From assembly GCA_003605055.1 (NCBI GenBank), contig QZKP01000041.1, positions 1-64,000 of the forward strand: a DNA stretch of 64,000 bases, written 5' to 3'. The notes beneath the pieces were generated by a model that ran no database searches, was not told the DNA's origin, and saw only the letters and a list, made by a program, of their open reading frames with translations. Below are positions 34,267 through 54,458 of this stretch, in pieces (positions within the stretch are counted from its first letter, which is position 1; every line of letters starts with the position of its first letter). Source of the stretch: Desulfarculus sp. Lineage in GTDB: Bacteria > Desulfobacterota > Desulfarculia > Desulfarculales > Desulfarculaceae. The position numbers and the translations under genes were made by a program.

Positions 34267-34571
34267 GGAGTCGGATTCAGCGGCTCATGGCGATATGTAG
34301 GCGGCTTCCGGCGAACTAGACGGTTGCATTAAACCGGAAATCAGAGGGTGGGTGTTGACCGACCCCGGCGACACCAGGGTGAGCGCGTGCCCGGGCGGGA
34401 GGTGCTTGACGCCGCGTTGCGCCGTTGCCGGTTCCCGCGCAGGTTGCCGCCCGCCCGGCGGGCTGGGCAGGCCCGCGGGTCACAACACGCCCCGGCCGCA
34501 TGGGCGGGCGCCATCTGAGGCGCAGACCGGCGCGGTGAAAAGTGCGCGTCGGGTCTCGGAGGAAGGACCTA

Positions 34572-35015
34572 ATGGATAAGCAAAAAATTGCTGGAGACAA
34601 AGTGCCCGCCCTGCCTGACCTGTTCCAGGGCGAGGCCGGCGGGGTGCGCCTGCGCAGCGCCCGCTGCGGCACCTGCGGCACCTGCTTTTTCCCGGAATAC
34701 CACGAGCAGCACCGCCCGGGATGCTCGCGGGAGGGCGTGGAGAAAATTCTCTTGAACCGCATTGGTAAGCTGGCCAGCTATACGGTGCAGCACTACATGC
34801 CTCCGCCTCCCTTCCGGACCGAGAAGGACATCACGCCTTACCCCATCGGCATGGTTGAGTTTCCGGAGGGCATCCAGGTGGTGGGCATCATGGTCGATTA
34901 TAAAGAGGATGATCTGGTGTTGGGCAGGGAGGTGGAGACCACCACCTTCACCCTGTACCGGGACGACAAGGGACAGGAGATCGTCACCTGGGCCTTTCGG
35001 CCGAAGGCACACTGA
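34572..35015 (+). CDS. DUF35 (Zn-ribbon/OB-fold) acyl-CoA-associated protein
   Basis: This 147-residue protein has an N-terminal zinc ribbon (CGTCGTCFFP with a further Cys in RPGC) and a C-terminal OB fold (ASYTVQHYMPPPPF, PYPIGMVEFPEG). DUF35 proteins bind thiolase-superfamily enzymes and bring acyl-CoA to their active sites. The next gene is such a thiolase-like protein, 39 bases on. ATG 34572 follows GGAGGAAGGA. Confidence 0.88.
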   Translation: MDKQKIAGDKVPALPDLFQGEAGGVRLRSARCGTCGTCFFPEYHEQHRPGCSREGVEKILLNRIGKLASYTVQHYMPPPPFRTEKDITPYPIGMVEFPEGIQVVGIMVDYKEDDLVLGREVETTTFTLYRDDKGQEIVTWAFRPKAH

Positions 35016-35054
35016 AATCCCGGCCCTGGCCGTATAGAGTTTTTGGAGCTCAAC

Positions 35055-36236
35055 ATGCGCAATGTTTCCATCATCGGCGTCGGATTGCACCCCTGGGGCA
35101 AATTCCCGCAAAACACCTTCGTGGAGCTGGGCGTGCAGGCGGTGGCCAACGCCCTGCAGGACGCCAATATAAAGTGGCAGGAGATACAGGCCATCGCCTC
35201 GGGCATCTACATCTGGGGCGGCAACGCCGGGCACATCTCCGGCCAATACCTGGCTGCGGTCTTCGGCGAGACCGGCATTCCCATCATAAATGTGTACAAC
35301 GCCTGCGCCACCGGGGCCGCGGCCCTGCGCACCGCCTATATGAGCGTAGCCTCGGGGCAGGTGGACGTGGCCCTGGCCGTGGGCGTGGACATTTCGCCCG
35401 AAGGGTTTCTTTCGGCCAAGTCCGACAACCCCCGCCAGGACCGGGACGTGCTGCGCTGGCGCATGGTGGGCATGCCCAACCCGGCCTTCTGGGCCTTGGA
35501 GTGCCGCAAGCGCATGCACAAATACGGCACCACCGCCGAGGACCTGGCCCGGGTCAAGGTCATCCTGAGCCAGTACGGGGTCTTGAACCCCAACGCCCGC
35601 TACCGGAAGGCCTACACCCTGGAGCAGGTCCTGAACTCCCCCATGGTCAACGACCCCCTGCGGCTGTTCGAGATTTGCGCCACCAGCGACGGGGCCGCGG
35701 CCATCATCGTCTGCGCCGCCGACAAGGCGGCCCAGTACACCTCCCAGCCGGTGAACATCGCCGCCTGCACCATGGGCAGCGCCATATACGGCGACCCCAC
35801 CATCCGCATCTCGGCTTTGTCCGCGCCGGCCAAGGCCGAGGCCCCCATGCTCAGTGAAAGCTATTCCGCCTCCCAGCAGGCCTACCGCATCGCCGGCATC
35901 GGGCCGGAGGACGTGGACGTGCTGGAGCTGCCCGACAACAGCTCCTGGCATTACCTGCAATACCTGGAGACCTGCGGCTTCTGCGGCGAGGGCCAGGCCG
36001 AGCAGATGGTGCGCGAGGGCCAGACCCAGATCGGCGGCAAGGTGGCGGTCTGCCCCAGCGGCGGCTTCTCCTCCTTTGGCGAAGCCATAGGTGCGCAGGC
36101 CGTGTGGCAGGTGGTGGAGGCGGTCACCCAGCTCCGTGGCCAGTGCGGCCCGCGGCAGGTGAAAAACGCCAAGGTGGCCATGGCCCAGACCTACGGCCTG
36201 ATGGGCAACAGCGCCACCACCATCCTCACCGTGTAG
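35055..36236 (+). CDS. Thiolase-superfamily (SCP-x/lipid-transfer type) protein
   Basis: This 393-residue thiolase-fold enzyme is expected to join or cleave a C-C bond on acyl-CoA together with the DUF35 protein. The nucleophilic Cys is present in NVYNACATGAAALR. The two later catalytic motifs are changed: the GHPxGATG-type His region reads CPSGGFSSFGEAIGA, and the final CxGGG region reads QTYGLMGNSATTI without Cys. This is typical of thiolase-like lipid-transfer/aldolase partners of DUF35 proteins rather than a classical acetyl-CoA acetyltransferase. ATG 35055 is chosen because GGAG lies six bases ahead. Confidence 0.85.
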   Translation: MRNVSIIGVGLHPWGKFPQNTFVELGVQAVANALQDANIKWQEIQAIASGIYIWGGNAGHISGQYLAAVFGETGIPIINVYNACATGAAALRTAYMSVASGQVDVALAVGVDISPEGFLSAKSDNPRQDRDVLRWRMVGMPNPAFWALECRKRMHKYGTTAEDLARVKVILSQYGVLNPNARYRKAYTLEQVLNSPMVNDPLRLFEICATSDGAAAIIVCAADKAAQYTSQPVNIAACTMGSAIYGDPTIRISALSAPAKAEAPMLSESYSASQQAYRIAGIGPEDVDVLELPDNSSWHYLQYLETCGFCGEGQAEQMVREGQTQIGGKVAVCPSGGFSSFGEAIGAQAVWQVVEAVTQLRGQCGPRQVKNAKVAMAQTYGLMGNSATTILTV

Positions 36237-36419: not shown

Positions 36420-37433
36420 ATGCCCAAGAAATTAATGATGTTGGCCAGCGTCGTGCTGGCGCTGACGCTGGTGGTGGCCGGCGCGGCCATGGCAGCGCCC
36501 AAGTACAAGTGGCGGGCCCAGGTGCTCACCCCGCTGACCAGCTACATGGGCACGGTCTACTGGGGCAACTGGGTCAAGCTGGTTAAGGAGCGCACCGAGG
36601 GGCAGGTGGAGATCAAGCTGTTCCCGCCCGGGGCCATTGCCAAGGGCAAGCAGATCTACGCCGCGGTGCAGAACGGCGCCGTGGAGGTGGGCTGCAGCTA
36701 CGGCGCCTATCACAGCACCGAGATCCCGGCGGCCTATGCGGAATACAGCATCCCCATGGGCTTCAAGGACATGAACGCCGTTTACGATTTTTACTACAAA
36801 TACAAAAACGGCGAGGCCCTGAAGGTGCTGGATAAGCTGTACCGCGAGAAGGGGACCACCCTGTTGTCCGTGGCCGCCTTCACGGTGGGCTTCATGACCA
36901 AGTTCCCCATCAACTCCATCGCCGACCTCAAGGGCAAGAAGCTGCGCGCCTCCGGCTCCTACGCGGCGCTGCTCAAGAACCTGGGGGCGGCGCCGGTTCT
37001 GCTGGCCAGTCCCGAGCAGTACATGGCCCTGCAGCGCGGCACCATCGACGGTACTCTTAACCCCCTGTACATGGCCGAGACCTACAAGCTCAAAGAGGTC
37101 ATCAAGTACATCGGCGTGCCGCCGGTGGGTTATGGCTTGGGCGACACCTACGTCAACCTGCAGACCTGGAACAAGCTGCCCGCTAATCTGCAAAAAATCG
37201 TGAAGCAGGCCGCCATAGACGCCGCCCTGGAGCACTACAAGGTCGAGTACGACAAGCTGGAGGGCCGCGACATCGGCCGGGCCAAGAAGGCAGGCGTGAC
37301 TATCGTCAATCTGACGGCCGCCGAGTTGGCCAATATCCGCAAGGCGGCCGAGCCCCTGTGGGAGCAGGTTGCCGCCAAATCGCCGGGCAGCAAGAAGATC
37401 ATAGACCTGATGAAGGAATTCGCCGGCAAGTAG
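36420..37433 (+). CDS. TRAP transporter DctP-family solute-binding protein
   Basis: This 337-residue periplasmic protein has a signal peptide (about 1-25, AMAA) and the DctP fold. KLFPPGAIAKGKQIYAAVQNGAVEVG and PINSIADLKGKKLRASGSYAALLKNLG hold the conserved Arg that contacts a substrate carboxylate. It has a strong AGGGAGGTGA ribosome site. It captures a carboxylic acid for the DctQM permease encoded next. It is still GC-rich, while the permease genes just downstream are AT-richer. Confidence 0.92.
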   Translation: MPKKLMMLASVVLALTLVVAGAAMAAPKYKWRAQVLTPLTSYMGTVYWGNWVKLVKERTEGQVEIKLFPPGAIAKGKQIYAAVQNGAVEVGCSYGAYHSTEIPAAYAEYSIPMGFKDMNAVYDFYYKYKNGEALKVLDKLYREKGTTLLSVAAFTVGFMTKFPINSIADLKGKKLRASGSYAALLKNLGAAPVLLASPEQYMALQRGTIDGTLNPLYMAETYKLKEVIKYIGVPPVGYGLGDTYVNLQTWNKLPANLQKIVKQAAIDAALEHYKVEYDKLEGRDIGRAKKAGVTIVNLTAAELANIRKAAEPLWEQVAAKSPGSKKIIDLMKEFAGK

Positions 37434-37545: not shown

Positions 37546-38082
37546 ATGCGCCTACTGTTTAGAATCGTGAAAGTTATTGATGCCATTTCCAGTTTGGTGG
37601 GGAATGCCTCTGTCTGGTTGGTTTTTATCCTTATGCTGGTCATGGTCTATGAAGTGGCCATGCGCTACGTTTTTACCGCTCCAACCATATGGGCCATGGA
37701 GCTTAGTGGTTACCTGATGTTGCTTTTTGTAGCTTTAGGGGGGGCCCTTGTTTTGCAGCAGGATGGGCACATCAACGTAGACATCTTGTATAGCCGTTTG
37801 AGCAAACGCGCGCAAGCGGTCATGAGTGTAATAACCGCCGGGCTGTTTTTTATTTTTTTATATTATTTTTTTATATTATCAGCGAAACAAGCAATGGTTG
37901 CGGTGGCGTTCAGACACACTTCGGGCACAATATGGAATCCACCCATATGGCCCATAAGTATCCTGCTAGCTGCGGGCGTAGGCTTGGTTATGCTGCAAGG
38001 AATAGCTAAGTTTATCCGCGACTTGGTGATGGCGGTCACCGGCGTTCCTCTAGAGCAACAAGCGGCTGCGTTCAAAGGTTAA
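37546..38082 (+). CDS. TRAP transporter small permease (DctQ)
   Basis: This 178-residue inner-membrane protein has four predicted helices and the family segment MVYEVAMRYVFTAPTIWAMELSGYLML. It pairs with the large subunit that starts three bases after its stop. Codon use is clearly AT-richer than in the binding-protein gene just upstream. Confidence 0.92.
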   Translation: MRLLFRIVKVIDAISSLVGNASVWLVFILMLVMVYEVAMRYVFTAPTIWAMELSGYLMLLFVALGGALVLQQDGHINVDILYSRLSKRAQAVMSVITAGLFFIFLYYFFILSAKQAMVAVAFRHTSGTIWNPPIWPISILLAAGVGLVMLQGIAKFIRDLVMAVTGVPLEQQAAAFKG

Positions 38083-38084
38083 TC

Positions 38085-39395
38085 ATGAGTATTGAACTTA
38101 TTACCATTTTAATTTTTGCCCTGTTGATAGTTTTATTGCTATCTGGCTTGCCCTTGGCTTTTGGCTTTGGCGCGGCCATGGTAATCCTGACCTTGTGGCA
38201 GATGGGGCCGCAAGGTCTTTACATAATAGTCACTACCGCTAATTCGGATTGGAACAGTTATATACTGCTGGCCATTCCCTTGTTTGTATTGATGGCCAAA
38301 TTTCTGCAGCACTCCGGGCTGGCCGAAAAAGTCTATAGCTCTATGTATAAATGGATGGGAGGCCTACCGGGCGGCCTGGCGATGGGCACCGTTTTTGTAT
38401 GCGCCATATTTGCGGCCATGTCGGGCATCAGCGGGGCGGCTACTGTCGCCATGGGGCTTATCGCCCTGCCGTCTATGTTGAAGCGCAACTACGACAAAAG
38501 AATGGCGGTGGGCACGGTCGCGGCCGGCGGATCGCTGGGGATTCTTATACCACCCAGCATTATCATGGTGGTTTACGCCAGCTTGACCAATGAATCTGTG
38601 GGCAAGCTGTTCATGGCCGGCATTATCCCCGGTATCATCTTGACTATCGTCTATATATTGCAAGTGGGAATATTATGTAGATTGAGGCCGCATTATGGTC
38701 CGCCGATTCCCGAAAATGAACGGGCAAGCCTTAAAGAAAAAATAGTAAGCCTTAAGGCCATTATATTGCCGCTCCTTATGATCCTTGTGGTTTTAGGGTT
38801 TATATATTTTGGCGTATGCACTCCCACAGAAGCCGCGGGAATAGGTGCTTTCGCCGCCTTTATCATAACGATAATTCAGGGACGTATGACTAAGGAAGTT
38901 TTTTTTAAATCATTAAAAGAAACCCTTATGATAAGTGTAATGATAATGTGGATTGTTTTGGGGGCTAAGTGCTTTGTACACATATATAGCGCAACTGGTG
39001 CTAGCGATTTTGTGGGAGATTTAATGAGCGGCTTGCCCCTGAACAAATGGTTTATAGTAATTATAATGCAATTCATAATTCTGTTCTTGGGAATGTTTAT
39101 TGATCCCATTGGGATTATGATGATCTGCGTGCCGGTATTTTTACCAATCATCGAGAGCTTTGGCATGAGCCCTATCTGGTTTGGGGTGCTTTTTACAATA
39201 AACCTAGAGATGGCTTACATAACTCCACCGTTTGGGCTTAATTTATTTTATCTGAAAAGTATTCTGCCGTCAGATGTCACAATGGAAGACATGTATCGCT
39301 CCATTGTTCCTTTTGTGTTGCGGGACATGGCAGTCCTCGCAATGGTTATGATATTCCCACAACTCGCACTTTGGCTGCCGGAGCACATGCATTAG
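38085..39395 (+). CDS. TRAP transporter large permease (DctM)
   Basis: This 436-residue protein with about 12 membrane helices contains DctM motifs: PLFVLMAKFLQHSG, AAMSGISGAATVAMGLIALPSM, AAGGSLGILIPPSIIMVVYA and YFGVCTPTEAAGIGAF. It forms the cation-coupled channel for the acid bound by the upstream DctP. Like DctQ it has AT-rich third positions. Confidence 0.93.
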   Translation: MSIELITILIFALLIVLLLSGLPLAFGFGAAMVILTLWQMGPQGLYIIVTTANSDWNSYILLAIPLFVLMAKFLQHSGLAEKVYSSMYKWMGGLPGGLAMGTVFVCAIFAAMSGISGAATVAMGLIALPSMLKRNYDKRMAVGTVAAGGSLGILIPPSIIMVVYASLTNESVGKLFMAGIIPGIILTIVYILQVGILCRLRPHYGPPIPENERASLKEKIVSLKAIILPLLMILVVLGFIYFGVCTPTEAAGIGAFAAFIITIIQGRMTKEVFFKSLKETLMISVMIMWIVLGAKCFVHIYSATGASDFVGDLMSGLPLNKWFIVIIMQFIILFLGMFIDPIGIMMICVPVFLPIIESFGMSPIWFGVLFTINLEMAYITPPFGLNLFYLKSILPSDVTMEDMYRSIVPFVLRDMAVLAMVMIFPQLALWLPEHMH

Positions 39396-41998: not shown

Positions 41999-42628
41999 AT
42001 GAGTAAGCGACAAAACCAAAAAAAACGTCGGTTTTTACCTCCAGGGCAGAGAAGAGGGGAAATACTCAAAGCTGCAGCTCAGGTTTTTAGTGAGAAGGGT
42101 TACTATAAAACGCGAATATCCGATATCGCTGCTAGGGCAAAGATGGGGCATGGTACGGTATACCGCTTTTTCCCAAGCAAAAGGGTTCTAGCTACTGAGG
42201 TGGTAGGTGCAAGAGGAGCGACGGGTTTTTTCCAGTCGTTGCGAGAAAACACAATTGAAGAATCAAACCCGTCTGAATTTTTTATGACCATCGGAGCAAA
42301 TTATTTGGGAAACCTGGGGGAACGCTTACCAATTATACGGTTTTCAATTGCAGAAGCTATTTCAAGTGAAGAACTAGCGCGACAATATTATGAAAATCTG
42401 TTGCAAACACTTTTTGATAAGCTTTCAGAGGCTGTTTCTACTTTCCAGGAAAAAGGAATTTTCAAAGAAGGTGATTCTTTTTTGCTAGGTCATATTTTTT
42501 ATAGCATGCTTTTTGGCTTTCTCTATTCACAAGAACTATTATATGGTAAAGAAATAACGCACATCGAAAAACAGAGGCTGATAGAAACTGTAGTGGACGT
42601 ATTCTTAAATGGTGTTAGAAAAGCATAA
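41999..42628 (+). CDS. TetR/AcrR-family transcriptional regulator
   Basis: This 209-residue regulator has the N-terminal HTH (RRGEILKAAAQVFSEKGYYKTRISDIAARAKMGHGTVYRFFPSK with the typical GTVYRFF helix) and a helical ligand-binding C-terminal domain with no motif to name its ligand. The preceding stretch of lysines (QNQKKRRF) is unusual. Its probable targets are the two TGANTGANNNNTCANTCA operators at 34249-34266 and 43022-43039, in front of acyl-CoA genes, so an acyl- or aryl-CoA is a likely effector. ATG 41999 follows TAAGGGAG. Confidence 0.92.
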   Translation: MSKRQNQKKRRFLPPGQRRGEILKAAAQVFSEKGYYKTRISDIAARAKMGHGTVYRFFPSKRVLATEVVGARGATGFFQSLRENTIEESNPSEFFMTIGANYLGNLGERLPIIRFSIAEAISSEELARQYYENLLQTLFDKLSEAVSTFQEKGIFKEGDSFLLGHIFYSMLFGFLYSQELLYGKEITHIEKQRLIETVVDVFLNGVRKA

Positions 42629-43213
42629 TTGAAGGTTGCTTATTTCTGGATATGACTAATAAACTAGTAATGTAGACAGTCCACAATGGATATAAATTGA
42701 ACAGAAAAAAAACAAAAAACCTATTAGATTGACGCTAAATTTATAAGCGGTTTTATGGAAATTTGCAATCCATTACTTAGTTCAAACTCATTTACAATTT
42801 GGAACTTAGTTCATCAATAGTGGAGAATGTTATCTGGTAAAGACTTTATCGAACTTAACAACTAATAATCTAAGCCTCAATACGTTGACTAATATAATGT
42901 AACAAAAAGTTGTTTTACAAATCGCCATAAACAAATTAATATCACCAAACTAGGTTTTTAAATCAATTTTAGTACCAGCAAGAAATGTTTGACAAAAAAT
43001 GGGAAGGAAAGTAAAAAGAAATGACTGATCGATCAGTCACTAATCATTGTACGCTAAGGGCTGGCTATAAAATAATAAAAACAAATAGGTATGTATATTT
43101 TATTACTATTATAGTTGACGTGCCAAATGTCGGTTCCTTAAAAACTGTTAGAAAAATTGGTTATATAAAAAGCCAAAAATGTTTTAACACTTTTGTGTGA
43201 TGAGGAGGTAAAT
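42629..43213. other. Long AT-rich intergenic region before the CoA ligase
   Basis: Nearly 600 bases, strongly AT-rich and without a plausible gene. Its identifiable content is the promoter-operator at 42989-43039 and a second weaker promoter-like pair (TTGACG 43115-43120, TAAAAA 43139-43144). I see no repeat or RNA gene in the first 350 bases. Confidence 0.6.
42989..43039 (+). promoter_or_regulatory. TetR-repressed promoter of the CoA ligase/molybdoenzyme operon
   Basis: TTGACA (42989-42994), 17 bases, TAAAAA (43012-43017). The predicted start lies at the left edge of the perfect 18-bp palindrome TGACTGATCGATCAGTCA (43022-43039). Placement over the start site implies repression by a TetR-family protein; the regulator encoded at 41999-42628 is the obvious candidate. 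Confidence 0.7.
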
Positions 43214-44860
43214 GTGTCAGTTATTCCAGGAGAATATCTGCCCTTAAACGACTTTTTGCCAGATTATATATATCCTTTGCCGGAGGTTAGGCTGCCCCAA
43301 GATATCAATGCATGTCAGCTGTTCTTGGATAAACATATTCTTGAAGGACGGGGAGATAAAGTTGCTATTATTTATATGGATCAAAAAATATCATTTTTTG
43401 AATTACAAAAAAAAGTAAATCAATTTGCGAACGCGTTAGCTTCTCTTGGAATTGAAAAATACGACCGCGTCATGATACGGATGCCCAATCGTCCGGAATT
43501 TGTAATAGGATGCTTGGCATGTTGGCGGTTAGGAGCCATTCCCGTTTTGACCCACCACCTTATTCAATCCGATGAAATTGTTTTTCGGGCCAATGATACG
43601 GAAGCTAAGGCTATTTTAGTAAGTTCTGACACTTTCCCGGCTGTAAAAGAAGGCTTAGATCGATGTCCATCGCTAAGGTCAGTTATGATAGCAAAAGATC
43701 GTATTGATAATTACTTGTTTTTAGACGATCTTATTCAAAACCAATCTGATCAGTGTGTGACAACGGAAACAACGAAAAATGATTGGCTGCGTATTATTTA
43801 TAGCTCCGGAACGACCGGTAAACCAAAGGGTATTATAAGTGCCATCGGAGATATGGTTGCCGGAATTAATGTTGCTAATCGCTATTTGTTACATCTAACT
43901 GAGAATGATGTACTTGGCTCTCCACCCGCCTTTACATTTGCCTTTGGATTCTTTTCTATATTATTTTTCGGTATCAGCGGTTGCACGTTAAATATTATCG
44001 AAGATTTTAGTGCGGAAAACATGTTTAAAGCAATTGAAAATAATCGTATCAGCGTTTTGCGCTGCGTACCGACTGGCCTTCGGATGATGTTGAACATGAA
44101 GGATAGCGAGAAAAAATATGATTTAAGATCACTACGCCTGTGCCAAAGCTCTGGTGAAGTGCTGCCTAGCGTTGTAGCCAAGGAATGGAAAAGTAGATTT
44201 GGCGTTACGGTCCTGAATTCACTTGGGTCGGCTGAACTCAACTCATATATGTCCACTCACGTGGATATGCCGGATGAAAAACTGGACTCGTTGGGTATGC
44301 CGGTCCCCGGCGTTGATTATCGTTTGGTTGATAGTGAGTTTAAGGAGGTTCCTGCCGGTACTCCTGGCGAATTAATACTGAGGGCGCCATGGGGACAACT
44401 GTATTGGAGACGTCCTGATGCACAAATGAAGAGCGTTAAAAATGGTTGGAACAGGACAGGGCTAATTTTCGAAGTAGATGCAGATGGTTATTTTTGGTTC
44501 AAAGGCCGAGATGATGACATGATTGTCAGCTCAGGATACAAAATACCCGGAGGGGAAGTGGAACAAGCCCTTTTAAGCAATGAAGTAGTGCACGAGGCGG
44601 CCGTGATTCCTTCACCCGATCCTATCCGAGGAAATATAGTTAAAGCATTCATCGTGTTAAAGAGGGGGTGTACGCCGTCTGATGATCTCAAAGAAAAGCT
44701 TAAAAATCATGTTAAAGGGAAGATAGCGCCCTATAAATATCCCCGGGAAATAGAGTTTATAGATGGTAATGCACTACCGCGGACCACAACCGGCAAGATT
44801 CAAAGATTTCTTCTGCGAGATAGGGAAATCCAAATGAAATTATCTAGAAAGAGTATCTGA
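43214..44860 (+). CDS. AMP-forming acyl/aryl-CoA ligase (benzoate-CoA ligase-like)
   Basis: This 548-residue adenylate-forming enzyme activates a carboxylic acid to its CoA thioester. Core motifs: IIYSSGTTGKPKG (ATP phosphates), NSLGSAE, RTGLIFEVDADGYFWFKGRDDD, and the C-terminal catalytic Lys in LPRTTTGKIQRF. Overall similarity in layout is to benzoate/2-aminobenzoate-CoA ligases, but the substrate is not determined. Start: GTG 43214 has AGGAGG five bases before it; an upstream TTG at 43193 would place the ribosome site inside the gene. It heads the TetR-controlled operon and is AT-rich. Confidence 0.9.
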   Translation: MSVIPGEYLPLNDFLPDYIYPLPEVRLPQDINACQLFLDKHILEGRGDKVAIIYMDQKISFFELQKKVNQFANALASLGIEKYDRVMIRMPNRPEFVIGCLACWRLGAIPVLTHHLIQSDEIVFRANDTEAKAILVSSDTFPAVKEGLDRCPSLRSVMIAKDRIDNYLFLDDLIQNQSDQCVTTETTKNDWLRIIYSSGTTGKPKGIISAIGDMVAGINVANRYLLHLTENDVLGSPPAFTFAFGFFSILFFGISGCTLNIIEDFSAENMFKAIENNRISVLRCVPTGLRMMLNMKDSEKKYDLRSLRLCQSSGEVLPSVVAKEWKSRFGVTVLNSLGSAELNSYMSTHVDMPDEKLDSLGMPVPGVDYRLVDSEFKEVPAGTPGELILRAPWGQLYWRRPDAQMKSVKNGWNRTGLIFEVDADGYFWFKGRDDDMIVSSGYKIPGGEVEQALLSNEVVHEAAVIPSPDPIRGNIVKAFIVLKRGCTPSDDLKEKLKNHVKGKIAPYKYPREIEFIDGNALPRTTTGKIQRFLLRDREIQMKLSRKSI

Positions 44861-44996
44861 ATCTATAGTACTACGCCCCTGGCCTTAATGGTCTTCGGTA
44901 ACATGAGTTATTTACAGCCCTGCTATGACCATGGTGGGAAGGCTGATAAAAAACGGCAGTGGCCCTCCGAATAGTCGAGGGAAGGGAGATATATAT

Positions 44997-47096
44997 ATGG
45001 AAGCGGAAAAAAAATGGCACCATGTCTTCTGCCATATATGCCCGGCTCATTGTGCACGCAGGGTTGCCGTACAAAACGGTGAGATCGTGGAAGTGCTGCC
45101 GGACACGAAAAGCCGTTGGCCCAGCGCCCCATGCTCCCACAACAAAAGTCAGATAATGAAGGAGGTCCATTCCCATCCCGATCGGCTTAAGTATCCCCTA
45201 AAAAGGATAGGCCAGAGAGGTGAAGGCAAGTGGCAGCGAATTTCATGGGATGAGGCCCTTGATACCATCGCGGCAAAATTAACCGAGTATAAGGAAAAGT
45301 TCGGCCCAGATAGTGTCGCCTTTTGTCTGGGTGAACCCAAGGAAATGGAGTTTGCCTTTGCCCAAAGATTTGCAAGTGTTTTTGGCACGGCCAACTGCGT
45401 GACACCGGGCAATTACTGAGGGGTTCCCCGGCTGGCAGGTGCCAGCTCTGTTTTTGGTACGCACTTTACCGCCGATCCTGGCCCTAACACCCGTTTGCTG
45501 TTGGTTTGGGGGGCTAATCCCTTTGAGCTCATGGGCGGCGAACGCATTGAGAAGATAAAGGCGGCCATCGCCGTCGGCGCCAAGGTGGTGGTCATTGACC
45601 CCAAGAGAACCCTGCTGGCGAAAAAGGCCGATTTGTGGATAAGTCCGAGGCCGCAAAGCGACGGCGCTTTGGCCATGGGCTTCATCAAAGTGATAATCGA
45701 AGAGAAGCTTTATAACGCTGATTTTGTATCTAAGTGGACGGTTGGCTTCGAAGAGCTGGAAAAGGAAATAAGGAGTTTTTCCCTGGATGAGGTGGGAACA
45801 GCCACCTGGATTCCCGAGGCGCAGATACAAAAAGCGGCCAGGATGTTTGCCGACCCTGCCAACAGGCCCTTTTGCTTTTACGAAGGAAACGGCATAGAGA
45901 GAAGCATCCACAGCTTTCAGGCCGTCCGCGCCATGAATATCATGGTGGCCCTGCTCGGCGACCTGAACGTCCCGGGAGGGAACATTCTGGTAACCCCCGC
46001 CCCCTTTGAGAGGATGGGACGGTTTTATATGCTGCGAGGGACCCCACGTAATTTCGCGAAGGGACTTTGCAGCCCTTTCCGCGTGGGCATGCCGGCAGCT
46101 TATGTGCCGCCGCAGTCATTTGTCAGGGCCGTATTGGACGAAAAGCCCTACCCCATAAAAGCCGCCATCTGCATCCTGACCAATCCCCTGGTCAGCTACC
46201 CGGATACGGAGGCAACCTACCAGGCGTTCATGAAGCTGGACTTCGTTGTGGTGTCGGAACTGTTTCCTTCGCCGACCACCATGGTGGCCGATATCGTTCT
46301 GCCGGCGGCCTGGGGCAGCGAGCATGACTCAGTGGGGTACTGGCCTGGCTGGCAACAGGGGCTTCGCGCCTATCCCAAACTGGTCGAGCCGCCCGGGGAG
46401 GCCCGCTCGAATTCCGATTGGCTCAATGACCTGGCCCAGAGGATGAACCTAGGCGAGCACTTCTGGGATAAATGGGAGGACTGCCTGGACGAGATCCTCA
46501 AGCCCGCTGGCATTAACTTTGAGCAACTCAAAGAACAGCGCTTCCTGGAAGCGACCAGGGAGTACAAAAAACCGGAAGAGGGGATTTTCAAGACTCTTTC
46601 GGGTAAGGCGCAGATATACTCCCAGGCCTTGAAACAACTTGGCTATGCGCCCGTCCCCACTTTCAAGGAGTTGAGCGATTACCGCTGGGACGTTTCCGAC
46701 GATTATCCGCTGCTCATGTTCAACGGCAAAGAAGCGGCCTTCATGAACAACGGCTATAAGCACGTCAAGATCGCCCGGGCGCGCAAGCCCTATCCCACGG
46801 TGCAGCTGAACCCGGAGACGGCCGCCAAGCTGGGGCTCCAGGAGGGCGAGTGGGTTTACATTGAAACCAAAAAAGGCCGGATCAAACAGGTCCTTAAGCT
46901 GGACCCGGACCTCCACCCCAAGCTGGTGTTTCCCTCCATGGGCTGGTGGTTCCCGGAGGAGCCGGAAGACCTCTTCCAATTCAGAAAGTCCAACATCAAC
47001 GTGCTCACCTATAGTGAGCCGCCCTATGACCCCGAGGTGGGCGCCGTGGAGTTAGGGGCCATACCCTGCCGGGTTTATAAAGTTGCTGATCAATAG
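44997..47096 (+). CDS. Selenocysteine-containing molybdopterin oxidoreductase (TGA at 45417-45419 read as Sec)
   Basis: Read through one in-frame TGA this gene encodes 699 residues of the DMSO-reductase/formate-dehydrogenase superfamily. Order: 4Fe-4S site CHICPAHC...PC (about 12-48), TPGNY-Sec-GVPR at residue 141 where the family has the Mo-ligating Cys/Sec/Ser, then bis-MGD binding segments (LVWGANPFELMGGERIEKI, ILTNPLVSYPD, VVVSELFPSPT) and a C-terminal MGD-cap domain (LNPETAAKLGLQEGEWVYIETKKG). ATG 44997 follows GAAGGGAG. The two halves are in the same frame, and a SECIS-like hairpin follows the TGA, so this is not a pseudogene. No export signal is seen, so it is probably cytosolic. It follows the CoA ligase and may oxidise, reduce or hydrate the CoA ester or acid; substrate unknown. 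Confidence 0.88.
45417..45446 (+). promoter_or_regulatory. Sec codon with bacterial SECIS element
   Basis: The TGA (45417-45419) is followed after 17 bases by a hairpin loop AGGT (45437-45440), closed by a perfect 6-bp stem GCTGGC (45431-45436)/GCCAGC (45441-45446). In E. coli fdhF the loop begins with AGGU at the same 17-base distance from UGA. A SelB-binding role is therefore strongly suggested. Confidence 0.8.
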
Positions 47097-47207: not shown

Positions 47208-48005
47208 CTATTTATTATAAACCCGGAGTACGGCCTCCAGCACCGAGCCCCCCAGGGAAAGGGCCTTGTCGCTGATGGTGTGCAGGTAGCATGCCTCCCC
47301 CCGGGGGTCGACGTCGCCCACCTTGAGGCCCTTTGTCACCGGCGCGCCGGGGCGGATCAGCCCCCGCAGCATGCCGGCCAACTGGGCGCGCACCGGGCTG
47401 TCGCCGACCCTGCCCACTTCCTGGCCGGCCTCCACCATGGCCCCCAGGGACAGATCTGTTTCAAAAACACCGTCGGCCGGGGCCCGCAGCACCCGCTCCC
47501 AGGTGCGGCCGGCGATGTTGCCCGGCACGCCGGTGTTGGCCTCGGCCGTCCCGCGCTCATAAAGCCGCCCCAGATTGTGTCCCCGGTTGGTCTCCACCAC
47601 GAAATGGGCGTCGCGGCCGGCTTCGAAGCCAGGCCCCAGGGCGATGACCAGGGGCGCATCGCGCAGACTCAGGCCCGCGTTGCGCTTGTTCAGGGTGGCC
47701 TCCACCAGGACCTGGGGCCTGAGTCGCGGCAGCACGCTCAACGCGGGGTCCACCAGCAGCGGGATGCGCCCCTGGGCCCAGGTTTCGGCCAACTGATCCA
47801 TGCGCCGCACATGCTGGGCGGTCACTCCCTCCACGGCCTTCTGGCCTTCATGGACCGCCTCGCAGAAGGACACCGCCCGGCGGACCGCCAGAGGACGGGC
47901 CGTCTCGGTCATGACCAGGCGGAAGCGGCTCTGGAACAGACGCCAGGCCACGCCGCTAGCCATCTCGCCAGCCCCCTTGATCAGTATGCAGAGATCGATG
48001 CCCAT
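47208..48005 (-). CDS. yqeB: YqeB (EF2563)-family selenium-dependent molybdenum hydroxylase maturation protein
   Basis: This 265-residue protein has the YqeB N-terminal Rossmann-like motif ILIKGAGEMASGVAWRLFQSRFRLVMTE and the family segments VDPALSVLPRLRPQVLVEAT and LGPGFEAGRDAHFVVETNRGHNLGR. Comparative genomics ties YqeB to organisms and loci that use a labile selenium atom in molybdenum hydroxylases, although its exact step is not known. It is the last gene of the minus-strand run that includes the three-subunit molybdenum hydroxylase at 50.5-54.4 kb, which makes that enzyme its likely client. Confidence 0.85.
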   Translation of the reverse strand: MGIDLCILIKGAGEMASGVAWRLFQSRFRLVMTETARPLAVRRAVSFCEAVHEGQKAVEGVTAQHVRRMDQLAETWAQGRIPLLVDPALSVLPRLRPQVLVEATLNKRNAGLSLRDAPLVIALGPGFEAGRDAHFVVETNRGHNLGRLYERGTAEANTGVPGNIAGRTWERVLRAPADGVFETDLSLGAMVEAGQEVGRVGDSPVRAQLAGMLRGLIRPGAPVTKGLKVGDVDPRGEACYLHTISDKALSLGGSVLEAVLRVYNK

Positions 48006-48054
48006 GCCCTATGACCTGCGATATGCGTGAAATCAGCTCCTGGCCGCGCTTGGT

Positions 48055-48456
48055 CTAGGCCTCGTCGTCGTAGACGTTGGCGATGCAGCACAGGAAGCTG
48101 CAAGCCTCGTTGTCGCTGGGATTGACAAAGCCGTGCGGCTCCATAGTGGGGATGAAGGCCACGTCATGAGGGCCGATGGCGAACTCCTCGGTCTTCCGGT
48201 CGGTCTCGGAGTCAAAGGCGAACCCGGTCAGCCGGCCCTCGAGGATAAACATGGTCTGATAGTAGAAATGTTTGTGGATGGGAATCTCGCCGCCCGGCCC
48301 TACGGTGAACAGGCGCAAGCCGTATTCCGGACTCTCGGCCGGCCCGGCGTTGGACAACCACTGGATGAACACGTCCTTGACCGCGTAGTCCTTGCCCTTG
48401 TAGGGGAACTTTTCGATCTTGTTCTTCACCGCGTCCTGAGCCCTGGTAACCTTCAT
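48055..48456 (-). CDS. Cupin-domain protein
   Basis: This 133-residue single-domain cupin has motif 1 as GGEIPIHKHFYYQTMFILEG (HxH plus Gln) and motif 2 around PHDVAFIPTMEPHGFVN with the third His. These can bind a divalent metal. Single cupins in catabolic operons act as isomerases, dioxygenases or effector-binding proteins; no choice can be made here. It has a GGAGAGAGG ribosome site and lies 49 bases before yqeB. Confidence 0.85.
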   Translation of the reverse strand: MKVTRAQDAVKNKIEKFPYKGKDYAVKDVFIQWLSNAGPAESPEYGLRLFTVGPGGEIPIHKHFYYQTMFILEGRLTGFAFDSETDRKTEEFAIGPHDVAFIPTMEPHGFVNPSDNEACSFLCCIANVYDDEA

Positions 48457-48575
48457 GTGTCCCTCTCTCCGGTTCGTGATTAGCAGGTGGGCAGGCTCAA
48501 TTCTTTGCGGGCCGTGCGGGTCGGTGTCTTCGCTCCGTCAGCTATATCGCCGCCAGGCGCCCCGGCCCCGAGCCA

Positions 48576-49559
48576 TCAGGCATATATCTCGGGGTTGAGG
48601 CAGGTGGGCGGCGGGGTCTGGCCCTTTATCAACACCGCGATCAGGTTGTCGGCCGCGATCAGGCCCATCTTGGTGCGGGTCTCGATGGAGCCGCTGGCTA
48701 TGTGGGGCAGGATCACCACCTTTTCCATGGTCAGCAGCCCGGGATGGATCTGCGGCTCGAACTCAAACACGTCCAGGCCGGCGCCGGCGATCTGGCCGGC
48801 CTGCAGGGCTGCCACCAATGCCTCCTCGTGGATCACCTCGCCCCGGGCGGTGTTGATTACATAGGCCGTGGGCTTCATCAGGGCAAAGTCCGGCGCGGCC
48901 ATGATGTGCTTGGTCTCCGGCGTGAGCGGCACGTGCACCGAAACGAAGTCCGACTCCCGCAAAAGCGTTTCTTTGTCCACAAAACGCGCCCCCACCTGCT
49001 GCTCCAGCTTGGGATCGGCCCGCACCACGTCGTGATAGATGACCTTCATGTCGAAGCCGGCCGCCCGTTTGGCCATGGCGTAGCCGATGCGGCCGAAGCC
49101 CAACAGCCCCAGGGTCTTGTGGTGCACGTCCGCCCCCACGAAGAGCAGGGGGGCCCAGCCCTGGTACTTGCCGGCCCGGGCGTAGGCGTCGGCGGGAACC
49201 ACGCGCCGGGCCACGGCCAGCAAAAGGGCCATGGCCAGATCGGCGGTGGTGTCGGTGAGCACCCCCGGCGTGTTGGTGGCCGGAATCTTGCGGCGGGTGC
49301 AGGCGGCCACGTCAATGTTGTTGAAGCCCACGGCGTAGTTGGCCACGATCTTCAACTGCGGGCCGGCCGCGTCCAGCAGCTCGTCGTCGACGCGGTCGGT
49401 CAAGAGGGGCAGTACGCCGTCCTTGCCAGCCACGCCGGCCAAAAGCTCCTGCCGGGTCAGTACGCGGTCGTGCGGATTGCACTCCACCGCGAAGTTATCC
49501 TCCAGCGCCCGCATGGCCCCCTCGGGCAGGCGCCGGGTGACGAAAATCTTAGGCTTCAT
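48576..49559 (-). CDS. D-isomer-specific 2-hydroxyacid dehydrogenase (glyoxylate/hydroxypyruvate reductase-like)
   Basis: This 327-residue NAD(P)-dependent enzyme interconverts a 2-oxoacid and a D-2-hydroxyacid. Nucleotide-binding GLLGFGRIGYAMAKRA, with Asp in VIYHD suggesting NAD preference; catalytic Arg in NTARGEVI, Glu in VFEFEP and His in LPHIASGS are all present. It is 12 bases downstream of the sugar-isomerase-like gene and probably handles a late, small intermediate of the pathway encoded by this locus. Confidence 0.9.
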   Translation of the reverse strand: MKPKIFVTRRLPEGAMRALEDNFAVECNPHDRVLTRQELLAGVAGKDGVLPLLTDRVDDELLDAAGPQLKIVANYAVGFNNIDVAACTRRKIPATNTPGVLTDTTADLAMALLLAVARRVVPADAYARAGKYQGWAPLLFVGADVHHKTLGLLGFGRIGYAMAKRAAGFDMKVIYHDVVRADPKLEQQVGARFVDKETLLRESDFVSVHVPLTPETKHIMAAPDFALMKPTAYVINTARGEVIHEEALVAALQAGQIAGAGLDVFEFEPQIHPGLLTMEKVVILPHIASGSIETRTKMGLIAADNLIAVLIKGQTPPPTCLNPEIYA

Positions 49560-49571
49560 CTGCCTTCCTTC

Positions 49572-50483
49572 CTATACCAGGGCCCAGGCCAGGTTCATGA
49601 CGCGCTGGGCGTTGGCTATGACCAGCAGCGGGTCCTGGCCCTCCATGGGCTTGACCTCAAAGCTGACTATGGGCCGCTTCACCTCGTCCAGGAACTCGAT
49701 GTCCATCAGAGTGCGCAGGAACTCCACCATCTCTGGCAGGTCGTTGGCGCTGCCGGCGGTGCCGAAGACGGGGTGGTAGTCGCCGTAGCCGGGCATGCCC
49801 TGGGTCAACACCGCGTTGCCCAGGTGAGCGCCGGCCAGGTATTTCTTGACCGGCTCCAGGGCCTCGCTGGGCGACTCCTGGAGCAGCGGTATGTGGCTCA
49901 GGTCCACCAACAGGCCGAAATTGTCGTGCTCCTCGCGCACGGCCTTGGCCACCTCCCGGGCCAGAGAGGCGGGCCCCAGCAGGCAGCACTTGTCCATCTC
50001 CCGGTCAAATACCTCGGCGATCACCTGCGGGCCGTTTTGCTGGCCCGAGTAAGCGCACAGCTCGCCCAGGGACTTGACCAGGGCCTGCACGGCCTGGGGG
50101 CGTTTTGCTTCGCCCGGGTCCTTGCCCGAGAGCAGCACAAAGCTGTCCGCCTCCATGAACACGGCCTCGTCGATCAGCTCCTTGAGCTTGGTCACGGCCT
50201 GTCCCCGCTTGCTCTCCTCCAGGGAGTTGATGTCCAGGCCGCCGCCCAGGATAGCCGGGTGGGCCCCGAAGCCCACCGAGAGGTTGGCCAGGCGGCAGAT
50301 GCCGCGCACCCGGCCGCGCACGGCCGCGTCGGCGATGTGGGTGATTTCGATGGCCGTAAAGAAGGGGTCGCGGGCGATATGGGCCACCGTCTCCTCCCAG
50401 GGGCCTTGGCCCCCGGCCAGTTGCGGGAAGGCCATGAAATGGACCAGGCCCATGCGCATATAAGCGTGATAGGAACGCTCCAT
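49572..50483 (-). CDS. Sugar phosphate isomerase/epimerase-like TIM-barrel protein
   Basis: This 303-residue protein has the AP-endonuclease-2/xylose isomerase-like barrel. Likely metal ligands are the Glu in QVIAEVFD, Asp in LLVDLSHIP, His in GAHLGNAV and Glu in SFEVKPMEG. Enzymes of this fold isomerise or epimerise sugars, inositols and hydroxypyruvate. Its place between the molybdenum hydroxylase and a 2-hydroxyacid dehydrogenase suggests a polyhydroxy or keto-acid intermediate. Confidence 0.82.
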   Translation of the reverse strand: MERSYHAYMRMGLVHFMAFPQLAGGQGPWEETVAHIARDPFFTAIEITHIADAAVRGRVRGICRLANLSVGFGAHPAILGGGLDINSLEESKRGQAVTKLKELIDEAVFMEADSFVLLSGKDPGEAKRPQAVQALVKSLGELCAYSGQQNGPQVIAEVFDREMDKCCLLGPASLAREVAKAVREEHDNFGLLVDLSHIPLLQESPSEALEPVKKYLAGAHLGNAVLTQGMPGYGDYHPVFGTAGSANDLPEMVEFLRTLMDIEFLDEVKRPIVSFEVKPMEGQDPLLVIANAQRVMNLAWALV

Positions 50484-50506
50484 GATGACTCCTTAGCCCG
50501 TCGGCT

Positions 50507-52903
50507 CTATTCCTTGGGCGGACCGCCTGCCTCCCGGATGGCCCAGAACACGGCCTCCGGGTCCGCGGGCAGCGAGCGCACCCGGCCGCCGCAGGCGTTG
50601 GTGATGGCGTTTAGTATAGCCGGGGTGGCCGGAATGTTGGGCATCTCGCCGATGCCCTTGGCGCCGTAAGGCCCGAACTCATTCTTCACCTCCAGGATCA
50701 CCGGCTGGATGTCCGGCACGTCCAGGGTGGTGGGGATCAGGTAGTTTTGCAGGCTCGTGTTCTGGATCAGGCCGTCGGTGATGACCACCTCTTCCATCAA
50801 GGCATAGCCCAGACCCATGCCCACGCCGCCCTCGATCTGGCCCTCCAGGGCCCGGGGGTTGATGGCCTTGCCCACGTCGAAGGCGGCCACGTATTTCTCG
50901 ATATCCACCTCGCCGGTCTCCACGTCCACCACCACCTGGGCCATGTGCGTGGAGTAGGTGTAGACGAAGTAGGGGTTGCCCTGGCCAGTGTGGCCGTCCA
51001 GGCTGGCGGGCGGCGGGGTCCACCAGCCCTGGCCGATCAGGCGCTTGCCCGTGGCCATGCAGCGGGCGGCCGCCTCCCGGAAGGCCAGGGACTTTTCCGG
51101 GTGGTCCCGGTCGAAAATCTTGCGGTCCTTGGACTCCAGCCGCTCCACCGGAACCATGAGCATCATGGAGGCGGTCTCCAACAGCGACTCCTTGACTTGG
51201 CGGGCGGCCATGATGATGGCGTTGCCCATCAGGGTGGTGGAGCGGCTGCCCACCGTGGGCCCGGACTCGGGCACCAGGTCCGTGTCCGGCGTGACCAGGC
51301 GTACGTCTTCCAGGCGCACTCCCAGCTCCTCGGCGCAGATCTGGGGCAGCACGGTGAAGGCGCCCTGGCCCATCTCGGTGATGCCCGAGTACAGGAGCAC
51401 CGAGCCGTCTTCGTGCACGTACACATTGGCCCCGCAGCCGTCGAAGCCGGTGCCGATGCTGGTGCGGTACCAGCCCATGCCGATGCCCACGCCCCGGCGC
51501 TTGCTGCGCTGGGCGTCCAGGTAGCCGGTCTGTTTGTAGCGGCGGTCCCACTCAAAGGCCTTGGCGCAGGCCTCCAGGGTGTCGCGCAGGCCCACACTCT
51601 GGTTTAGCACCTGGCCGGTGGCGGTGGTCGAGCCCAGCTTGAAGGCGTTCTTGCGCCTAATCTCCAGGGGGCTCAAGCCCAGCTCGGTGGCCAGCTCGTC
51701 CAGGACCTGCTCGTGGGCGATGTGGACCTGAGGCGCGCCGAAGCCGCGCATGGCCCCGCCGTAGGGGTGGTTGGTGTAGGCCAGGTAGGCGTCCACCTTC
51801 ACGTTGGGTATCTCGTAGGGGCCGGCCATCATCACCATGGAGTGCACGTGGCTGCCCCCGGCCGGCGGGATGCGCGGGCCCAGGCTGGCGTAGGCCCCCT
51901 GTTCGTCGTAGATCACGCCCTGGAAGGCAGTGAGGGTGCCGTCCTTCTTGGCCCCGATCTTCACCTCCATGATCATGGGATGGCGCTTGGCGGTCTGCAG
52001 GGTGATCTCCTCGCGCTCCAAGGCCAGGCGCACCGGACGTTTGGTATGCCAGGCCAGCACCGCCGCTCGGCAGCCGATGTCAATGGGCGAGTCCTCCTTG
52101 CCGCCGAAGCCACCGCCCATGTGTATCTGGCGGCAGCGGACCTTGTTGATGGGCAGGCCCAGCACGGGAGCCACATTGCGCCGGGTGGTGAAAGGCGCCT
52201 GCATGGGCCCTTCCACCAGCATGGTGCCGTCCGGCTGGGGGATGGCCATAACCATGTCCGGCTCGATGTAGGCGTGCTCCAGGAAAGGCACCTGATAGGT
52301 GCGCTCGATTATCACCTCCGCCTGGGCGAAGCCGGCCGCCACGTCGCCCTTGATCAGCTTGTCGTAGGAGAGCAGGTTGCCCTTCTCGTGAATCTTGGGC
52401 GCGCCCTCGGCCATGGCTTCGCGGGGGTCGAACACCGCGGGCAGAGGCTCGTACTCCACTTCGATCAGGGACAAGGCCTGGTGGGCGATTTTCTCGCTCT
52501 CGGCCGCCACTAGGGCCACGCCGTCGCCCACGAAACGCACTTTGTCCCCGCAGATCACCGGCTGGTCGGGGATGATGGCTCCGAAGCCGTTGCGGCCGGG
52601 CACGTCCTTGGCCAGCAGCACCGCCGCCACGCCCTCCAGTTCCTGGGCCTTTTTGATGTTGATGGACTTGATCCGGGCGTGGGGGTGGGGGCTTCTGAGT
52701 ATCTTGCCGTGCAGGAAGCCCTCGGCCGGGTAGTCGGCGCCGTACTTGAGCTTGCCGGTGACCTTCAGGGGGTCGTCCACCCGCCGCACCGAGGTGCCGG
52801 CCACGGTGAGGGCGGCCTGGCCTTCCCGGGCCAGCCGCTGCAGGTCAATCTTTTCCTTGGTTAGGACCTTAGCCTCTTTCTTGTCGTCGGTCTTATCGAA
52901 CAT
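50507..52903 (-). CDS. Molybdenum hydroxylase large subunit (xanthine dehydrogenase family)
   Basis: This 798-residue subunit carries the molybdopterin cytosine dinucleotide site. Motifs: DVPGRNGFG near the N-terminus, HMGGGFGGKED, MRGFGAPQVH, TEMGQGAFTVLPQICAEELG and the catalytic Glu in GAKGIGEMPNIPAT. It hydroxylates a carbon next to nitrogen (or an aldehyde) using water. With the small and medium subunits encoded just upstream it forms a complete XdhABC/CoxLMS-type enzyme. YqeB in the same run suggests a labile selenium ligand at molybdenum. Substrate unknown; purine-, pyrimidine- or nicotinate-like rings are typical. Confidence 0.92.
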   Translation of the reverse strand: MFDKTDDKKEAKVLTKEKIDLQRLAREGQAALTVAGTSVRRVDDPLKVTGKLKYGADYPAEGFLHGKILRSPHPHARIKSINIKKAQELEGVAAVLLAKDVPGRNGFGAIIPDQPVICGDKVRFVGDGVALVAAESEKIAHQALSLIEVEYEPLPAVFDPREAMAEGAPKIHEKGNLLSYDKLIKGDVAAGFAQAEVIIERTYQVPFLEHAYIEPDMVMAIPQPDGTMLVEGPMQAPFTTRRNVAPVLGLPINKVRCRQIHMGGGFGGKEDSPIDIGCRAAVLAWHTKRPVRLALEREEITLQTAKRHPMIMEVKIGAKKDGTLTAFQGVIYDEQGAYASLGPRIPPAGGSHVHSMVMMAGPYEIPNVKVDAYLAYTNHPYGGAMRGFGAPQVHIAHEQVLDELATELGLSPLEIRRKNAFKLGSTTATGQVLNQSVGLRDTLEACAKAFEWDRRYKQTGYLDAQRSKRRGVGIGMGWYRTSIGTGFDGCGANVYVHEDGSVLLYSGITEMGQGAFTVLPQICAEELGVRLEDVRLVTPDTDLVPESGPTVGSRSTTLMGNAIIMAARQVKESLLETASMMLMVPVERLESKDRKIFDRDHPEKSLAFREAAARCMATGKRLIGQGWWTPPPASLDGHTGQGNPYFVYTYSTHMAQVVVDVETGEVDIEKYVAAFDVGKAINPRALEGQIEGGVGMGLGYALMEEVVITDGLIQNTSLQNYLIPTTLDVPDIQPVILEVKNEFGPYGAKGIGEMPNIPATPAILNAITNACGGRVRSLPADPEAVFWAIREAGGPPKE

Positions 52904-52953
52904 GAGACCTTCCCTTTATAAGGCAGGCGCTGGGGCCTGGAGATGCTCCGCGG

Positions 52954-53424
52954 CTACTTTCCCTGGGCGATGTTCTGCACGGCCTGCACGATCTTGCGGT
53001 AGCCCGTGCAGCGGCACAGCACCCCGGACAGGGCCTGCCGAATCTGGCCCTCGTCGGGATGGGGAGCCTTGTCCAGGAGGGCCTTGGCGTTGAGAATCAT
53101 GGCCGGCGTGCAGAAGCCGCACTGAGAGGCGCCTTGGTCCGTGAAGGACTGCTGCAGGGCATGCAGGGTGCCGTCCTCCTGGACCAGGCCCTCGATGGTG
53201 GTCACCTCGCGTCCGGCCGCCTTCATGGCCGGCAGCAGACAGGAGTTGACCGGCTCGCCGTCCAGAAGCACCGTGCAGGCACCGCATTCGCCCTCGCGGC
53301 AGCCGGCCTTGGTGCCTGTGAGTCCCAGGTCCTCGCGCAGCACATCCACCAGCAGCGCGTTGGGGGCCACCGCCAGGCTGGTCAGCTTGCCGTTGACTTT
53401 AAAAGAAAGCTTGAGTGTGCTCAT
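52954..53424 (-). CDS. Molybdenum hydroxylase 2Fe-2S small subunit
   Basis: This 156-residue subunit has the two 2Fe-2S clusters of the family: [15 protein letters not shown]...NSC for the plant-type cluster and [11 protein letters not shown]...CRCTGYRKI for the helical cluster. It passes electrons from molybdenum to the FAD subunit. ATG 53424 follows an AAGGA site and lies 11 bases after the FAD subunit gene. Confidence 0.93.
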
Positions 53425-53435
53425 GTTTCCGTCCT

Positions 53436-54359: not shown

Positions 54360-54458
54360 CTGTTTCCCCTTCACCATTCTCTGGGGTTTATGAATGGTCT
54401 GTCCCTGCCTCGGGCAGGGTTTGCTGCTAACTGTATCTGACGCGGCCGCTGCGGCGGC

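Follow-up and report, generated by a model that had tools for sequence, protein, structure and literature searches.

The Gene and Its In-Frame TGA

The window considered here, a stretch of 64,000 nucleotides (nt) from Desulfarculus sp. (contig QZKP01000041.1), contains a gene for a molybdopterin oxidoreductase whose reading frame is crossed by one TGA codon. In an earlier sequence-only reading, this codon was proposed to encode selenocysteine (Sec) at the position where the enzyme binds its metal, molybdenum (Mo) or tungsten (W). The analysis reported here supports this proposal, to which we assign a probability of about 0.88: the gene would encode a selenoprotein with Sec at residue 141, belonging to a Mo/W lineage other than that of the formate dehydrogenases. 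The relevant features are the following:

44997..47096, + strand: gene for a predicted Sec-containing molybdopterin oxidoreductase, 699 codons and a stop, with read-through of one TGA
45030..45134, + strand: Cys12, Cys15, Cys19 and Cys46, probable N-terminal [4Fe-4S] cluster ligands (sequence, alignments)
45417..45419, + strand: UGA codon 141, probably read as selenocysteine, at the Mo/W ligand position (alignment with homologues)
45430..45447, + strand: bacterial selenocysteine insertion sequence (bSECIS) hairpin, stem 45430-45436 with 45441-45447, loop AGGU 45437-45440 (folding, constraints of PMC13188914)

The TGA at 45417-45419 is the sole stop among the 699 codons, which bears out the claim of two in-frame halves of one molybdopterin-oxidoreductase frame. 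Both halves are spanned by Pfam matches above cut-off, PF00384 (150.1 bits) and PF01568 (69.4 bits), and these molybdopterin- and dinucleotide-binding domains, together with a predicted fold of the bis(pyranopterin guanine dinucleotide) (bis-PGD) type, place the product in the DMSO reductase (MopB) superfamily. Genes of this sort get split by standard annotation. The four N-terminal cysteines probably bind a [4Fe-4S] cluster, as is usual in the superfamily. No export signal is visible in the product, and GGGAAGGGAG, about 8 nt 5' of the ATG, is a possible ribosome-binding site.

Codon 141 Across Homologues

Codon 141 aligns with Sec140 of Escherichia coli FdhF and with the metal-binding Cys of acetylene hydratase, and Cys occupies this column in all of the homologue loci given (65/65). 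The TGA thus falls on the metal-ligand Cys/Sec position, as had been claimed. The suggested check for Cys in homologues gave the same answer in a wider set of 148 loci, many of which overlap or repeat one gene: among the 108 that match P0001, column 141 holds Cys in 97, a stop in five and something else in three, and lies outside coverage in three (L061, L025 and L044). The five stops belong to the window gene (twice), the L129 gene (twice) and E. coli fdhF, while the three remaining loci (L120, L122 and L123) are remote members from the host genome itself (25-28% identity) with a gap, Glu or Thr. TAA or TAG codons flagged by genome searches in L111, L131 and L137 were rejected, as the alignments show no stop there. 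The host genome also holds a Cys paralogue of the Sec enzyme, on contig C64, with 45% identity.

The L129 gene, found in a genome (G406) that shares only the phylum with that of the window, has TGA at the same codon (TPLAL-stop-GGGANAASS) and encodes a protein 44% identical to the window protein. It was the one locus returned by a search for further TGA homologues that covered 23 collection loci, 21 genomes of the order, 395 of the phylum and 85 of another order. No TGA homologue was found among viral contigs, and the plasmid search gave only two matches, at 29.6% identity. More TGA homologues may exist, since access to the genome collection was confined to six short peptide patterns.

Were codon 141 a Cys codon, 253 single-base changes in the gene could create a stop, and just one of them would fall on this codon. 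Because the TGA falls on this one site, and because it recurs there in a second genome, its position is a stronger argument for Sec than the hairpin.

The bSECIS Hairpin

The stem of the hairpin comprises 7 base pairs (bp), six of them Watson-Crick pairs and the outer one G.U, and the AGGT loop starts 17 nt past the TGA. The earlier description of a 6-bp stem with an AGGT loop therefore holds for the Watson-Crick pairs, but 17 nt is the distance to the loop and not to the stem, which starts 10-11 nt past the TGA. Published constraints for bSECIS elements include a loop of 3-9 nt, an upper stem of 4-16 bp, a spacing of 16-37 nt, a G within the first two loop positions and an energy of -7.5 or lower (PMC13188914), and the window hairpin lies within all of them (AGGU loop, 7 bp, 17 nt, energy -12.4). 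The spacing was also correctly likened to that of E. coli fdhF: GGT occupies nt 19-21 after the TGA in the window gene, in fdhF and in the Sec formate dehydrogenase gene of the host genome. A database check bore out the fdhF stretch used: the two listed records are identical to it (100%) and carry the annotation fdhF, and 5,363 of 5,369 matching records agree with it at 99% or more.

When the same peptide was recoded synonymously (20,000 samples), an element as stable as the window hairpin arose in 0.7%, and some qualifying element with a stem of at least 6 bp in 12.7%. Within the gene, an equally stable element at 16-19 nt spacing follows two of 679 codons (codon 141 and codon 100); among the 65 Cys homologues, two carry an element at -7.5 kcal/mol or better, one of them as stable as the window hairpin. 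This measure counts uninterrupted stems only and is stricter than the published model, which is why E. coli fdhF (-2.0), the SelD gene of the host (-5.9) and L129 (-5.8) fall short of the energy threshold. With one mismatch allowed, the L129 hairpin reaches -9.5 and qualifies as bSECIS. An Rfam scan of the 64-kb window gave no match.

Selenocysteine Machinery of the Host Genome

Profile searches of the host genome identified selB (contig C48), selA (C8) and selD (C22), all above curated cut-offs. The selD gene (G000:C22:30746-31669, L084) itself has an in-frame TGA, and its context (G-stop-AAK) fits the UxxK motif listed for SelD in the available part of PMC13188914. Among 11 PF00384 matches in the genome, a TGA is present in two, the window gene and a formate dehydrogenase gene (G000:C10:41408-42685, L115), which reads ARL-stop-HSSTVAG and continues into a hairpin with its loop at 17 nt.

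Lineage of the Enzyme

The window protein scores 260.1 bits against the Fdh-alpha family (TIGR01591, cut-off 666.25) and slightly higher, 266.7 bits, against PhsA (NF012032, cut-off 694), and thus lies below both cut-offs. His141 and Arg333 of FdhF, the catalytic residues of formate dehydrogenase, align with Gly142 and Pro334. Phylogenetic analysis placed the protein within a fully supported clade of 13 rows (11 Cys and 2 TGA), apart from the formate dehydrogenases and also from the branch with acetylene hydratase; the branching order between the two TGA copies was not settled by the tree. In a fold comparison of the predicted structure, the closest solved fold was that of acetylene hydratase. 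Catalysis by acetylene hydratase requires an essential Asp next to an Fe-S Cys, a residue that aligns with Pro16 of the window protein.

On residues, score, tree and fold, an identity as formate dehydrogenase was rejected. Residues, profiles and tree show a predicted enzyme of an acetylene-hydratase/polysulfide-reductase-like lineage, outside the formate dehydrogenases.

Genomic Neighborhood and Possible Substrate

The following genes precede the Sec gene; L061 denotes the locus of its closest relative.

34542..35015, + strand: DUF35-like (OB-fold) protein beside the thiolase-like gene (by eye; no NCBIfam match)
35043..36236, + strand: lipid-transfer/thiolase-like protein (NF004715, 438.9 bits, cut-off 424; resembles an L061 gene by eye)
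36420..37433, + strand: TRAP transporter substrate-binding protein, also in L061 (clustering, sequence)
37546..38082, + strand: TRAP transporter small membrane subunit, also in L061 (clustering, sequence)
38085..39395, + strand: TRAP transporter large membrane subunit (clusters with L047; sequence)
41999..42628, + strand: TetR-like regulator, also in L061 (best family match far under its cut-off)
43193..44860, + strand: AMP-forming acyl-CoA ligase, benzoate-CoA-ligase-like (TIGR02262, 354.1 bits, cut-off 375.25)

The ligase gene lies directly upstream of the Sec gene, across a gap of 136 nt. It had been claimed that the enzyme belongs to an acyl-CoA ligase context rather than to formate dehydrogenase genes, and this description proved accurate, the enzyme itself not being a formate dehydrogenase. 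A related ligase is found near the homologue in 8 of the 10 regions compared (nine loci plus the window), although in L061 it is about 5 kb away on the opposite strand. None was seen in the L048 and L050 regions, the latter being uninformative because the homologue itself was not called there. The TRAP genes and the TetR-like regulator are common to the window and L061. Third-position G+C is 0.38 in the ligase gene, against 0.55 and 0.72 for the two parts of the Sec gene on either side of the TGA (window 43193-47093), so the ligase may have another origin.

Several homologues are accompanied by candidate electron-transfer partners. After the Cys paralogue on C64 come genes similar to AsrA/ShyB and AsrB/HydG (below family cut-offs). 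Homologous frames of about 800-897 residues occur in L047, L048, L049, L051 and L053; in L053, the frame has 801 residues and is preceded by an XdhB-like gene (match below family cut-off), and by eye the additional N-terminal part of the frame resembles a [2Fe-2S] domain of the xanthine dehydrogenase (XDH) type; an XdhB-like gene is also clustered in L048 and L051. In these relatives, judging from sequence, a bis-pterin catalytic part is apparently combined with xanthine-dehydrogenase-type redox parts. Such flavin or Fe-S partners speak for redox chemistry. From its neighbors, the substrate of the window enzyme could tentatively be the CoA thioester of an imported acid, with odds somewhat short of even. 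It is plausible that the substrate is new.

Other genes of the window deserve mention. A UbiD-family decarboxylase (window 22403-23845, + strand; 271.9 bits, cut-off 244.85) and a protein resembling old yellow enzyme, most similar to BaiCD (window 39474-41429, - strand; 481.3 bits, cut-off 825), are perhaps further members of an anaerobic pathway for aromatic or polycyclic acids. Beyond the Sec gene, YqeB (TIGR03309, 349.3 bits, cut-off 220) stands beside XDH-type molybdenum hydroxylase genes (window 47208-54377, - strand; hydroxylase genes at 50507-52903 and 53436-54377, - strand), possibly a cluster for a labile-selenium molybdenum hydroxylase that immediately adjoins the Sec gene. As an explanation of the TGA, such a hydroxylase was rejected, the YqeB and XDH-type genes belonging to another superfamily and to the other strand.

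Proposed Function and Alternative Explanations

We propose that the product of the gene is a Mo/W-bis(pyranopterin) oxidoreductase with selenocysteine in place of the metal-ligating Cys. SelB carrying Sec-tRNA would recognize the hairpin, 17 nt downstream, and UGA-141 would be read as Sec, using the selA, selB and selD products encoded in the genome and a tRNA-Sec gene that presumably falls into a gap of the assembly. Sec141 would coordinate Mo or W through its selenium, as suggested by the alignment and the predicted fold. From the neighboring genes, the TRAP transporter would import a carboxylic acid, the adjacent ligase would convert it to its CoA thioester, and the enzyme would perform two-electron redox chemistry on the product, such as an oxidation or hydroxylation close to the thioester group, or the opposite reaction.

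A number of observations weigh against this proposal. Neither an Rfam model nor ARAGORN nor a DNA pattern detected tRNA-Sec in the host assembly (78 contigs, 93.9% complete), where ARAGORN assigned the eight best loci to Trp, Ser, Leu, Gly, Tyr and Thr tRNAs; the absence of selB or tRNA-Sec had been named beforehand as evidence against Sec, and it thus applies in part, selA, selB and selD being present. The folding energy of the 43-nt stretch does not stand out (z -1.08; an equal or better fold was seen in 33 of 200 shuffles). No selB was found in the 73%-complete genome G406, where three weak matches look like EF-G, EF-G and Era, so its TGA copy, L129, could be a pseudogene. This second copy has Arg in the column of FdhF Arg333, and no ligase is present on its 7,063-base contig. 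The closest relative, L061 (59%), is without residues 137-171 and shows a frame change (L061:10380-10400). Finally, no redox-partner gene stands beside the window copy.

For tRNA-Sec, an assembly gap is the likely reason. Thirteen of the 21 genomes of the order have a tRNA-Sec match over cut-off, five of the seven genus mates among them, and in four of these five (L073, L074, L075 and L079) the tRNA gene adjoins a nucleotidyltransferase-like gene (CCA-adding or poly(A)-polymerase-like, by eye), whose close counterpart is also missing from the host assembly (best match 34%, partial). In L074 and L079, frames that look by eye like integrases flank tRNA-Sec on its opposite side; this locus may serve as an integration site in the genus, which could explain poor assembly there. 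The gap in L061 falls exactly over the ligand and the hairpin and represents either a real loss or an assembly fault. The ORF just upstream of this homologue contains X, i.e., unknown bases in the scaffold, so a fault is possible and L061 neither confirms nor refutes the proposal.

Among the alternatives, the one that survives best, though improbable at something like one chance in eight, is a Sec enzyme of the acetylene hydratase type, catalyzing hydration without net redox, perhaps of an unsaturated acyl-CoA. The fold and the lack of a redox partner beside the window copy fit such an enzyme; against it, the essential Asp aligns with Pro16, and the homologues have flavin or Fe-S electron-transfer neighbors for which a hydratase has no need.

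It is about half as probable that the gene is a pseudogene, in which the TGA is an ordinary nonsense mutation of a Cys codon and the hairpin is due to chance. TGA is one substitution from TGC, the z-score is weak, 12.7% of recodings carry some qualifying element and tRNA-Sec is absent from the assembly. However, this would require that one of 253 possible sites was struck in two genomes, with no other stop in 699 codons, in a genome that holds sel genes and two more TGA-containing genes of known Sec families, and an equally stable element arises in only 0.7% of recodings. A sequencing or assembly error, the true codon being TGC or TGT, is more doubtful still: the assembly is fragmented into 78 contigs, but a bSECIS with the fdhF loop position follows exactly this codon, and TGA stands in this column in an unrelated assembly as well. 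Least credible is that the gene encodes, in an unusual setting, a Sec formate dehydrogenase (or CO2 reductase), for although the superfamily members with Sec in the available part of a 2026 inventory are all FdhA or FwdB and the Fdh-alpha profile does match, that match is far under its cut-off and below the PhsA score, Gly and Pro replace His141 and Arg333, tree and fold place the enzyme elsewhere, and the genome has a separate TGA-containing formate dehydrogenase.

Significance and Comparison With Known Systems

A 2026 review gives an inventory of 119 prokaryotic selenoprotein families or subfamilies (its Table 1), and in the available part of it only FdhA and FwdB represent this superfamily (PMC13188914). 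No report of Sec in the present lineage was found in searches of an open-licence library. The window gene would therefore be the selenoprotein form of a lineage so far known only with Cys. It might even define a third Sec lineage of the DMSO reductase superfamily, with a chemistry other than that of formate or formylmethanofuran, as an acyl-CoA-pathway Mo/W clade acting on a CoA thioester in a reaction not yet described for a selenoenzyme; for this broader claim we consider the balance to lie slightly on the negative side. The exchange of Cys for Sec perhaps occurred more than once.

To our knowledge, the question of Sec over Cys in metal enzymes has been argued almost wholly from formate dehydrogenases. 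The Sec/Cys pair formed in the same genome by the window enzyme and its C64 paralogue would allow this comparison on a different reaction. Sec within a clade that is otherwise Cys in its sampled members looks like a later gain, which bears on the view, expressed in the available text of PMC7331816, that Sec is the ancestral ligand of the superfamily.

With the Sec formate dehydrogenases (E. coli FdhF and the host's own enzyme), the window enzyme shares a predicted Sec metal ligand, the Mo-bisPGD fold and a UGA followed by a hairpin with GGU at nt 19-21. In contrast to them, it has neither a His after Sec nor an equivalent of Arg333 (NYUGVPR instead of UHxP), is only 25% identical and lies at a distance in the tree. 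From acetylene hydratase of Pelobacter acetylenicus (PDB 2e7z), it differs by the predicted Sec ligand, by Pro16 in place of the essential Asp, by its acyl-CoA-ligase neighborhood and by its separate 13-row clade. It is also unlike PsrA/PhsA (PDB 2vpw): it scores far below the family cut-off of 694, has a predicted Sec ligand, and no membrane or periplasmic partner genes were seen. A functional analogy, drawn from description only, is with phenylacetyl-CoA:acceptor oxidoreductase PadB, a member of the superfamily that acts on an acyl-CoA and is encoded beside a CoA ligase.
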